This document shows, piece by piece, positions 13,955-17,149 of a stretch of DNA of 24,593 bases; position 1 is the first letter of the stretch; each line of letters starts with the position of its first letter. Origin of the DNA: a virus; IMG/VR virus record IMGVR_UViG_3300030099_001986, positions 1-24,593 of that record, one strand, 5' to 3'. The notes under the pieces were generated by a model. The model worked only from the letters and a program-made list of their open reading frames with translations. It was not told the DNA's origin and made no database searches. Position numbers and translations under genes: made by a program.

Positions 13955-14070
13955 TATGACGGACTCCACCAGGTTTGATCAACAAACAACATTGTCAAAA
14001 TAAAATAAATGATGGCCATCAATATGACCCAAATCAGGGTGTTGAACCCTTCACGGATAAACATTTTCAT
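13954..14070 (-). CDS. 38-aa single-pass membrane microprotein
   Basis: The gap between the exonuclease and winged-helix genes is filled by a 38-residue frame, MKMFIREGFNTLIWVILMAI continuing IYFILTMLFVDQTWWSPS. GGGGAT lies 3 nt before the ATG. Residues 11-30 are one strong transmembrane helix with a basic N-terminal flank, predicting the N-terminus inside. It starts in an ATGA overlap with the exonuclease stop and ends in a TAATG overlap with the next gene, so it is coupled on both sides. Function unknown; a membrane peptide in a recombination operon is unexpected. Confidence 0.72.
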   Translation of the reverse strand: MKMFIREGFNTLIWVILMAIIYFILTMLFVDQTWWSPS

Positions 14071-15005
14071 ATCATCCCCCATAGTTTTCTAGCTTCATCA
14101 AGATATGTTTCAGTCTCTTGCCAGTATATCGCAGACCAATCTGGTGACACCAAGCTGAACAAGTCTTCCTTGGTCGCCGATGCTTTTAACAGGTTTTCTG
14201 TAGTGCGATGATACAACGTCGCCTCATTGATAACATCTTGCAAGAAATCATTCCGCAACTCAGGCGCGTTTTCTGGCGTGAACACACGATAGTCTGTCGC
14301 GTTGGCATACACGATGAAAGGCGGTAGGTTGCCATTGAGCGCCCAGAACCCAGCCGCTTGGAACACGTTGTTCATATCAAACATACCGGTAAGCGAACTG
14401 GGCAGACTACCGGCTTGCCACCCAGATTTAGACCGGCTACTTGGCCGTGACCATTTTGTCTTGAGATCACCGCGCCGGTTGTAGTCCGGTTTGGTATGGT
14501 ATGGCACTTGTAAGCCCGGCAGGGGCTTCAGCAGCTCGATCTCACCCAAGATGCGGTTGTCACTAGCCATAGCCTCTTGTAAGCCCTTCACGGCGTGTTC
14601 TACGACGATTGGCAACTCTTCTAAATATTTTTCTTTGCGAGCCTCATCTGCGTCGTCGTTTGGCTGATATGCTTGCAGATGTTCGACGCCGGCATGGATT
14701 GCCTCAGCCAGTGGAACGGTTTTGCCTTGTTTGTCCATGACCAGGTTGAGGTCTGTCGCCACCTGTGTCGCTGTACCGCCGGCCATGTTGGCGCTGCCAC
14801 GGCCATCACGCAATCTATAAAGAACATCCTTGGCCTCAAGGATCTCTTTGCTTGTGGATTGTTTGTTACGCAAGACCTTTTTGGCTTTTTCAATCTGTGG
14901 TCTAACGTGTATCTTTTCAAAAAAGTCTTTTGCTCGATCTTTTGAGCGCTGGTTGGACACTGTCCAGATACCCAGCTTGGTTGCAAAGTCAGGTGTGTCT
15001 ATCAT
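14067..15005 (-). CDS. PD-(D/E)XK exonuclease, RecB/Cas4-like
   Basis: 312 residues. The nuclease core is visible as GEIEL (residues 154-158), KPDYNRRGDLKTKW (172-185) with D180-x-K182 as the D/E-x-K pair, and FQAAGFWAL (215-223) as the RecB-type Q-x-x-x-Y/W motif. The N-terminal 140 residues are helical (QIEKAKKVLRNKQS, GGTATQVATDLNLVMD). Such enzymes resect DNA ends and in phages pair with an annealing protein, which lies downstream in this operon. ATG 15005 begins the leftward transcript, 47 bp from the divergent HTH gene, so both are probably controlled from that short region. A weak purine run precedes the start. Confidence 0.8.
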   Translation of the reverse strand: MIDTPDFATKLGIWTVSNQRSKDRAKDFFEKIHVRPQIEKAKKVLRNKQSTSKEILEAKDVLYRLRDGRGSANMAGGTATQVATDLNLVMDKQGKTVPLAEAIHAGVEHLQAYQPNDDADEARKEKYLEELPIVVEHAVKGLQEAMASDNRILGEIELLKPLPGLQVPYHTKPDYNRRGDLKTKWSRPSSRSKSGWQAGSLPSSLTGMFDMNNVFQAAGFWALNGNLPPFIVYANATDYRVFTPENAPELRNDFLQDVINEATLYHRTTENLLKASATKEDLFSLVSPDWSAIYWQETETYLDEARKLWGMI

Positions 15006-15671: not shown

Positions 15672-15904
15672 TGCTTGAAGGCGATGGCACATGGCATAAC
15701 AGGTTGCGATGGGGTATGTGTCCCAAATGCGAGACAATCTTGCCGAGACGCAAAGGTGGCCTTGTTGTTTGTAATGTTTGTGGGCTTGGCATAGCTGTTA
15801 CGCCATGCGATCAGTGCGATGATGGCATGGTGCGCGAACCTGACGGCTATGGCTGTGTTCAGTGGACTAGCTGTTACAGCTGCGATGGCAGGGGCTGGAC
15901 ATGA
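15671..15904 (+). CDS. Zinc-finger protein with four CxxC motifs
   Basis: 77 residues from ATG 15671, which overlaps the upstream TGA by one base. CPKC (17-20) and CNVC (34-37) form a zinc ribbon. CDQC (46-49) and CYSC (68-71), in the setting CDQCDDGM...CYSCDGRGW, look like a DnaJ-type or second zinc finger. Two zinc ions are therefore predicted. Small proteins of this type lie next to phage nucleases and methyltransferases and may bind DNA or partner proteins. No catalytic residues are seen. The end overlaps the methyltransferase start by 4 nt. Confidence 0.75.
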   Translation: MLEGDGTWHNRLRWGMCPKCETILPRRKGGLVVCNVCGLGIAVTPCDQCDDGMVREPDGYGCVQWTSCYSCDGRGWT

Positions 15905-17010
15905 TGGCTCACGTTGATTTATGCAGTGGCATTGGCGGCTTTGCTTTGGGCTTTGAGTGGGCTGGCTTATCCAAACCTGTCATGTTTTGTGACATAGAGC
16001 CGTGGAGCCGCAAGGTATTAGCAAAGCATTGGCCAGACGTGCCGATTGCCCATGACGTAAAGGAGTTAGCTAGTGACCCAACAAGACTTGTTCCAAACTG
16101 CGATATCCTCACAGCCGGATATCCCTGCCAGCCATTCTCCGTTGCCGGGAAGCAAAGAGGCGAGGAAGATGACCGCCACATCTGGCCGGAAATATTTGCC
16201 ATTGTGCAAGCAAAACGGCCCTCTTGGTGCGTTTTCGAGAATGTTTCTGGACACATCAGTTTGGGGCTCGACCAAGTGCTATCTGACCTGGAAGATAAGG
16301 CCGGTTACGCAGTCCAAACATTTTGTATTGGAGCTGTGTCCGTCAATGCTCCGCACCGCCGACAGCGAATCTGGATTATTGCACACATCAACAGCCAAGG
16401 CGAACCAGATGGCACCATCAATGAACAGCGGATGGTGGGCAACACCTCGAACGACGGATGGCACAGGGGGGCCACGCAAGCTGGACGAGAAGGGCAGACG
16501 CATCAGTCAGACCAACCCGAACTTGGTATTCGGGGCGAATTTAGCAGACCAAGTGAAGATGTGGCCGACACCGACAGCAAGCCAAGCAAGGTCAGAGGGC
16601 AGCATCAAACAGATGCGACAGAAAGTCTACGCAGGGGAAGTGACGCGAGAGGAAGCCGAGGCAATGATAGGTGGGAGTTTGGAGCCAGCCCGAATGACGA
16701 AGATGTGGCCGACCCCAACCGCGAAAGATTACAAGGACAATGGCCACAGTCCAGCGGAGTTGGCGCGGAACAGCGTGACCCTTGCGACCCACGCAGGTGG
16801 AACACTGAATCCAGAATTTGTGACTTGGCTGATGGGCTACCCAAGGGGCTGGACAGATTTGACGGATGGGAGCGAGAGCCAGAAGACATCCCAAGAGTAG
16901 CAACAGGGGTCAAAGACCGCGTTAGCCGCTTGAGGGGGCTTGGGAACGCGATAGTGCCGCAAATAGCCATGCAGATCGGGCTGACCATCAAGGCGGTGCG
17001 TGATGAGTAG
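15901..17010 (+). CDS. DNA (cytosine-5) methyltransferase
   Basis: 369 residues with the C5-MTase motifs in order: I, DLCSGIGGFALGFEWAG (6-22); IV, GYPCQPFSVAG with catalytic C76; VI, ENVSG (113-117); VIII, HRRQRIW (152-158); X, LRGLGNAIVPQI (344-355). The segment between VIII and X (about 160-335), the target-recognition region, is hydrophilic and includes DVADTDSK and DVADPNRE, phrases typical of phage C5-MTases. It methylates cytosines in phage DNA, probably protecting it from host restriction. The start is ATG 15901 or 15904, in an overlap with the zinc-finger gene. Remarkably, 16073-16900 is also open in the +1 frame and encodes a second family-like protein. No restriction endonuclease is seen beside it. 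Confidence 0.93.
   Translation: MMAHVDLCSGIGGFALGFEWAGLSKPVMFCDIEPWSRKVLAKHWPDVPIAHDVKELASDPTRLVPNCDILTAGYPCQPFSVAGKQRGEEDDRHIWPEIFAIVQAKRPSWCVFENVSGHISLGLDQVLSDLEDKAGYAVQTFCIGAVSVNAPHRRQRIWIIAHINSQGEPDGTINEQRMVGNTSNDGWHRGATQAGREGQTHQSDQPELGIRGEFSRPSEDVADTDSKPSKVRGQHQTDATESLRRGSDARGSRGNDRWEFGASPNDEDVADPNRERLQGQWPQSSGVGAEQRDPCDPRRWNTESRICDLADGLPKGLDRFDGWEREPEDIPRVATGVKDRVSRLRGLGNAIVPQIAMQIGLTIKAVRDE
16059..16075 (+). promoter_or_regulatory. Internal ribosome binding site and GTG start for the nested gene
   Basis: AAAGGAG at 16059-16065, then 7 nt, then GTG at 16073. It lies inside the methyltransferase coding sequence and immediately precedes the long alternative frame; an in-frame TAG at 16067-16069 leaves this GTG as the first possible start. 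A near-consensus site exactly placed before a 275-codon frame is unlikely by chance. Confidence 0.7.
16073..16900 (+). CDS. Nested protein encoded in the +1 frame of the methyltransferase gene
   Basis: 275 residues from GTG 16073 to TAG 16900, wholly inside the C5-MTase gene. It contains FSRMFLDTSVWGSTKCYLTWK (about 54-74), MWPTPTAS (163-170), MWPTPTAKDY (211-220) and GGTLNPEFVTWLMGYPRGWT (242-261). I know this set (S/TxxW-STxCxLTWK, MWPTPTAxD, GGxLNPxWVEWLMGxPxGWT) from phage proteins often found with, or annotated as, DNA methyltransferases. Here the MWPTPTA motifs arise from the same bases as DVADTD and DVADPN of the other frame. A strong Shine-Dalgarno precedes the GTG. No catalytic motif of its own is visible, so a function such as specificity or partner subunit is only a guess. 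The alternative, a chance open frame, does not explain the family-like motifs. Confidence 0.72.
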   Translation: MTQQDLFQTAISSQPDIPASHSPLPGSKEARKMTATSGRKYLPLCKQNGPLGAFSRMFLDTSVWGSTKCYLTWKIRPVTQSKHFVLELCPSMLRTADSESGLLHTSTAKANQMAPSMNSGWWATPRTTDGTGGPRKLDEKGRRISQTNPNLVFGANLADQVKMWPTPTASQARSEGSIKQMRQKVYAGEVTREEAEAMIGGSLEPARMTKMWPTPTAKDYKDNGHSPAELARNSVTLATHAGGTLNPEFVTWLMGYPRGWTDLTDGSESQKTSQE

Positions 17011-17149
17011 CATGAGCAACCCCTATCAACTGCCAGGCGGTAACATTCAGATCAGTTTTTCTGGCGGCAGAACATCAGCTTATATGCTACATCAGATACT
17101 GCAAGCCAATGGCGATTGTCAGGCAGACGGCGGGGATTGTACGGGATGA
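17003..17149 (+). pseudogene. Truncated PAPS-reductase-like (PP-loop) gene
   Basis: ATG 17003, overlapping the methyltransferase end, opens a 48-residue frame. Residues 13-34 (GNIQISFSGGRTSAYMLHQI) are the beginning of phage PAPS-reductase/PP-loop proteins, with the nucleotide-binding SGGRTSA loop at 20-26. After ANG (37-39) the homology ends and the frame stops at TGA 17149. Full proteins of this type are typically over 200 residues, and the rest of the fold (the reductase core) is not found downstream in any frame. It looks like a 3'-deleted remnant. It is still coupled by ATGA to the next gene, so translation through it may be kept for that reason. Confidence 0.7.

Follow-up and report, generated by a model that had tools for sequence, protein, structure and literature searches.

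The window examined here is a 24.6-kb virus record (24,593 nucleotides in full) with a podovirus-like gene set, in which genes for the terminase large subunit, head-tail adaptor, major head protein, internal virion protein and tail proteins are present. As seen in Table 1, one cytosine-5 DNA methyltransferase (C5-MTase) gene of this window, alpha, encloses a second gene, beta, in another frame of the same strand. A preliminary description had reported an 828-nt +1 frame wholly inside the methyltransferase gene, preceded at 7 nt from its GTG by AAAGGAG, and this proved correct in position. The family phrases that it had paired across the two frames were likewise borne out by coordinates: DVADTDSK (16558-16581) and MWPTPTAS (16559-16582) are written with the same bases in frames one apart, as are DVADPNRE (16702-16725) and MWPTPTAKD (16703-16729).

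Table 1. Positions of the two overlapping genes and of their features in the window
Feature	Position	Strand	Remarks
alpha, cytosine-5 DNA methyltransferase, predicted large polypeptide	15901..17010	+	ATG start, 369 aa
alpha motif I, VDLCSGIGG	from 15913	+	outer frame
alpha motif IV, PCQ	within 16111-16161	+	outer frame
alpha motif VI, ENV	within 16216-16251	+	outer frame
alpha motif VIII, RRQR	within 16345-16386	+	outer frame
alpha motif X, RLRGLGNAIVPQIA	16918..16989	+	outer frame, past the end of beta
beta, nested gene wholly inside alpha	16073..16900	+	GTG start, 275 aa, offset +1
Shine-Dalgarno sequence of beta, AAAGGAG	16059..16065	+	written in alpha codons V-K-E; 7 nt to GTG
Overlap segment 1: alpha motifs IV-VIII over the beta N-terminal part (KMTATSGRK, STKCYLTWK)	16073..16386	+
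Overlap segment 2: probable target-recognition region in beta (WATPRTTD, two MWPTPTA units) over the alpha linker (DVADTDSK, DVADPNRE)	16387..16795	+
Motif IX, GGTLNPEFVTWLMGYPRGWTDL	16796..16861	+	beta frame; hhalign and codon-position divergence

The outer protein matches C5-MTase models well, although not over its whole length. Its match to PF00145 (E=2.5e-36) covers residues 3-177 only, residues 4-164 correspond to M.HhaI 14-173, and it scores 106.9 bits against TIGR00675, over the cut-off of 100.65, and E=4e-68 against PHROG 363. The SAM-binding and catalytic motifs I, IV, VI and VIII are all present. Motif IX is absent from the alpha frame, leaving alpha with motifs I-VIII and X; instead of IX being followed by X in one chain, IX lies in the nested frame and X in the outer one.

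For beta, the GTG is the first possible start, because a nested-frame stop (TAG, 16067-16069) precedes it. The protein matches PHROG 1008 (E=1e-28), a group of phage MTase proteins, and relatives were found in 68 phage records by tblastn, in 143 IMG/VR stretches and in 252 stretches of bacterial genomes, with 6 records from a plasmid search. No match in the PDB was obtained by sequence or by profile. AlphaFold2 (AF2) of beta alone gave a poor model (mean pLDDT 56), and the Foldseek matches of this model were discarded as meaningless.

No cognate nuclease was recognised near the methyltransferase gene. Directly downstream, a 45-codon ORF at 17012-17149 (MSNPYQLPGGNIQISFSGGRTSAYMLHQILQANGDCQADGGDCTG) resembles the truncated start of a PAPS-reductase-like gene, whose relatives beside the same methyltransferase run for about 259 residues from the motif onward (loci L007, L017, L020 and L173). 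An annotated PAPS reductase also lies close to the methyltransferase in phages C72C1 and ShiLan. Upstream of the methyltransferase region, a 312-aa ORF on the minus strand (14067-15005) has no Pfam or PHROG match.

Persistence of the nested frame among relatives

A null model was built by shuffling the synonymous codons of alpha 20,000 times, which leaves its protein sequence and codon usage intact. One of these shuffles opened the +1 frame for 275 codons or more, the mean longest run being 105 codons, and the earlier judgement that a chance origin is unlikely is thus upheld. The third frame of the overlap is closed, with 15 stops in the window; among the 80 closest IMG/VR loci, the longest stretch of this frame without a stop spans 10-35%.

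The preliminary description had proposed testing whether the same loci encode both frames and whether stops are avoided in the second one. Both frames were indeed open in relatives collected independently with each protein. Among the most similar loci, sampled at 80 per search rather than over the whole MTase family, and related to each other so that the counts are therefore not independent, both frames are open over the whole match in 80 of 80 IMG/VR loci found with beta (36-100% identity), the nested frame is present in all 74 complete loci found with alpha (in a further 5, the contig ends within the locus), and 72 of 80 bacterial loci have the canonical nested layout, the remainder being mostly contig ends or rearranged versions. 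The bacterial hosts of this layout belong to many phyla, from Clostridia to Alphaproteobacteria, Bacteroidetes and others. The stop count of 0 against 875 is partly circular, because the 141 genes concerned were picked as nested; the argument from openness rests on the sets unselected for nesting and on codon-position divergence.

The start of beta also leaves its mark on alpha. Across 177 loci, its Shine-Dalgarno sequence was found in 135, compared with 66 expected from alpha-synonymous codons. At this site, GAG stands at 80% versus 33% elsewhere, and AAG at 86% versus 42% elsewhere. The nested Shine-Dalgarno sequence constrains the choice of alpha codons.

Selection along the two frames

Divergence was taken from a frame-agnostic nucleotide alignment (242 pairs, 136 loci) and is given for alpha codon positions 1/2/3. 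Before the overlap, it is 0.132/0.070/0.402. Over motifs IV-VIII it becomes 0.140/0.077/0.214, and the wobble divergence of alpha is halved compared to that outside the overlap; constraint on the synonymous sites of the outer frame, which had been put forward earlier as a check, is thereby seen. Between motifs VIII and IX the values are 0.304/0.160/0.144, indicating that the periodicity flips to the beta frame, and over motif IX they are 0.240/0.081/0.070. After the end of beta, at motif X, the outer-frame wobble returns (0.134/0.105/0.401). As alpha position 1 is the wobble position of beta, past motif VIII the gene evolves in the beta frame, reverting to the alpha frame at motif X. The alpha linker in overlap segment 2 is weakly constrained. 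Consequently, of the idea that the two proteins are co-constrained, the constraint in the overlap stands but its evenness does not: the beta frame dominates from motif VIII to IX, and the alpha frame before and after. A shuffle-based test of beta identity gave 0.742 versus 0.373 in the overlap and a smaller excess, 0.563 versus 0.364, in the alpha-only region, although this test overstates the effect because shared ancestry is erased.

Division of the methyltransferase motifs between two polypeptides

The C-terminus of beta (LNPEFVTWLMGYPRGW) is C5-MTase motif IX, as judged by sequence comparison. Alignment of beta with single-chain actinophage relatives by hhalign gave a probability of 96% and E=2.2e-9 over 24 columns, which comprise motif IX alone. 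In loci L152 and L250, motif IX lies in the alpha frame just before X while PTPTA repeats remain in the +1 ORF, and PF00145 spans the alpha protein from end to end. The L250 stretch is collinear with M.HhaI 270-314 (KLHPRECARVMGYPDSY...GNSVV, motif IX and X), the second domain being weak on its own (4.8 bits). The WPTP segment of beta is most likely the DNA target-recognition segment; this reading draws on its location, after VIII and before IX, and on the beta-frame selection there. An AF2 model of a single-chain relative (pLDDT 66) was rejected as proof of a target-recognition domain (TRD) fold, since its LPTP segment falls below 50 and its overall match to M.HhaI has a large rmsd.

The layouts of relatives vary. 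ShiLan gp70 and about ten actinophage loci have the single-chain form, in which one frame holds the LPTP units and both motifs IX and X, and more distant outer-frame phage relatives can be ordinary single-chain MTases (L249). In split pairs (L246, L253; Gordonia phage Camerico, Mycobacterium phage Relief), the second protein carries IX and X along with a TRD-like segment, and motif X is shifted to beta in L098. Stand-alone homologues of the nested protein, whose absence the preliminary description would have counted against its reading, did not emerge: every complete beta homologue found lies within an MTase gene. The C-terminal module of beta does have relatives elsewhere, both as an in-frame part of single-chain MTases and in split pairs that mostly do not overlap.

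Several loci show further peculiarities. AG dinucleotide tracts of 7-11 units lie inside the dual-coded region of three loci from gut Oscillospiraceae/Ruminococcaceae (L153:3561-3582, L161:3503-3517 and L117:3573-3588). Beyond the tract, L153 and L161 have motif IX in the third frame and X in the beta frame, while L117 is canonical; repeat slippage at such tracts could make the dual-frame enzyme phase-variable. In L251 (Paenibacillus polymyxa plasmid pAP1), the motif IX segment occurs twice (LNPTWVECLMGFP and LNPAWVECLMGFP), in separate alternative-frame ORFs inside a 511-aa alpha, which suggests a duplicated TRD-IX module. A short +1 ORF over motifs IV-VIII of the actinophage single-chain MTases L254, L257 and L267 has a weak match (10-17 bits) to the profile of the beta N-terminus; it may be what is left of beta, or a forerunner of it.

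With motifs I-VIII and X on the outer protein and IX on the nested one, the two frames very probably specify the two subunits, alpha and beta, of a single heteromeric cytosine-5 DNA methyltransferase. The catalytic core, which also binds SAM (I-VIII), would come from alpha, as would motif X. Beta would be translated from its own Shine-Dalgarno sequence and GTG on the same message, and would supply motif IX and, most likely, the segment recognising the DNA target. The two would then assemble into the equivalent of a single chain (I-VIII, TRD, IX, X), and methylation should require both. Such a gene may have originated from a single-chain gene whose TRD-IX stretch was put in the +1 frame by two compensating frame changes, alpha being left to read through that stretch as a linker. 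The enzyme, as an orphan MTase, probably modifies the DNA of the phage itself and so protects it from restriction by the host. The earlier suggestion that the shared message yields a partner or specificity subunit gains support from the in silico tests of shared loci, stop avoidance and outer synonymous constraint.

Other explanations fare less well. Beta might be a real, selected gene for an independent protein, such as a regulator or anti-restriction factor, rather than an MTase subunit; its N-terminal part (KMTATSGRK...STKCYLTWK) has no recognised counterpart among the single-chain C5-MTases checked, and its fold was not recognised by PDB searches or AF2. This is nevertheless improbable, as the C-terminus of beta is the very motif IX missing from alpha, and the shifting of IX and X between frames in relatives would make little sense if the two polypeptides did not belong to one enzyme. 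Marginally less probable still is a single alpha-beta polypeptide, produced by ribosomal frameshifting into +1 after motif VIII with no separate initiation. The order of I-VIII in alpha and TRD-IX in the +1 frame fits such a product, but it would lose motif X, the start codon of beta is conserved with a Shine-Dalgarno sequence that constrains alpha codon choice, and selection in the beta frame is already evident upstream of motif VIII, where alpha wobble is halved. Decay of a single-chain gene by a frameshift of its TRD-IX region, which would make the pair a pseudogene here, is very improbable: the adjoining PAPS-reductase-like gene (17012-17149) is truncated compared with its relatives, but the same split and both open frames persist in phages and many bacterial phyla under purifying selection in both frames. 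Finally, although composition can yield long overlapping ORFs, an open +1 frame as a mere by-product of MTase codon bias is rejected in silico and has almost no probability left, given its length in the shuffles, its retention by all complete relatives, the halved or flipped wobble divergence and the Shine-Dalgarno constraint; the dual-frame coding is not chance.

Extending the two-subunit reading, dual-frame C5-MTases may form a widespread overprinted class, in which the catalytic gene of each enzyme also encodes, in a second frame, its recognition segment, and in which mutations tie the catalytic and the recognition subunit to each other. TRD, IX and X would repeatedly migrate between frames in this class, giving nested, split, single-chain and possibly, at AG tracts, phase-variable forms. 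This generalisation is proposed tentatively, as a serious possibility that falls a little short of being the expected one.

Relation to known methyltransferases and significance

The small polypeptide of M.EcoHK31I is read in an alternative frame within the gene of the large one, and the same placement is found in the window and its relatives. As described in PMC3404938, the large polypeptide of this enzyme (specificity YGGCCR; Lee, Kam and Shaw 1995) has motifs I-VIII and X and its small one motif IX, which is the division found in alpha and beta; the two systems are likened here by this division of motifs. M.EcoHK31I has also been used as a 'naturally split methyltransferase' (PMC3439449). 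Unlike M.EcoHK31I, which belongs to a restriction-modification system, the gene in the window is a phage gene accompanied by no recognised nuclease. Moreover, PMC3404938 has the TRD of M.EcoHK31I predicted in the large subunit, whereas selection here points to the small one as its carrier. M.AquI is a two-polypeptide C5-MTase as well, with the distal variable region, IX and X on its small subunit (PMC3404938). It is, however, split in order, while in the window X is on alpha and the genes are nested.

Closer to the window are the Paenibacillus larvae phages Tadhana (gp54/gp55, NC_048691) and Lily (gp62/gp63, KP296792), which have the same nested +1 layout and a homologous beta (34.6% identity over 95% of the query in Tadhana), but with longer or shorter TRD segments. 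Records of these phages annotate both genes, as two DNA-cytosine methyltransferases, as a hypothetical protein, or as 'g62 internal gene' (Lily), and a listing in PMC6070908 places two DNA-cytosine methyltransferases side by side. Single-chain C5-MTases of the mycobacteriophage ShiLan gp70 type share the catalytic core, LPTP units, IX and X, and a short +1 ORF overlaps them too; unlike the gene in the window, whose probable TRD, IX and X are spread over two frames, they hold all three in the outer frame of one polypeptide.

The preliminary description had left open whether this dual coding was already described. The kind is already known, from two-polypeptide C5-MTases such as M.EcoHK31I (the class dating from the 1990s), and from the annotated overlapping pairs in Paenibacillus larvae phages. 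No description of nested phage MTases was found in the literature searched, and as far as that literature shows, the breadth of the layout, the frame switch in selection, the Shine-Dalgarno constraint and the mosaic of layouts are new.

In phage C72C1 (L242), a clear nested beta gene at 1670-2245 is unannotated and alpha alone is listed. Annotation can thus record one frame only; the enzyme is then incompletely described, and specificity may be assigned to the wrong polypeptide. In silico, the locus is a well-supported example, shared by phages and bacteria, of long dual coding on one strand, and selection in it switches frame at a protein-domain boundary. Additionally, natural split methyltransferases of this kind are a resource for split-enzyme engineering of targeted methylation.
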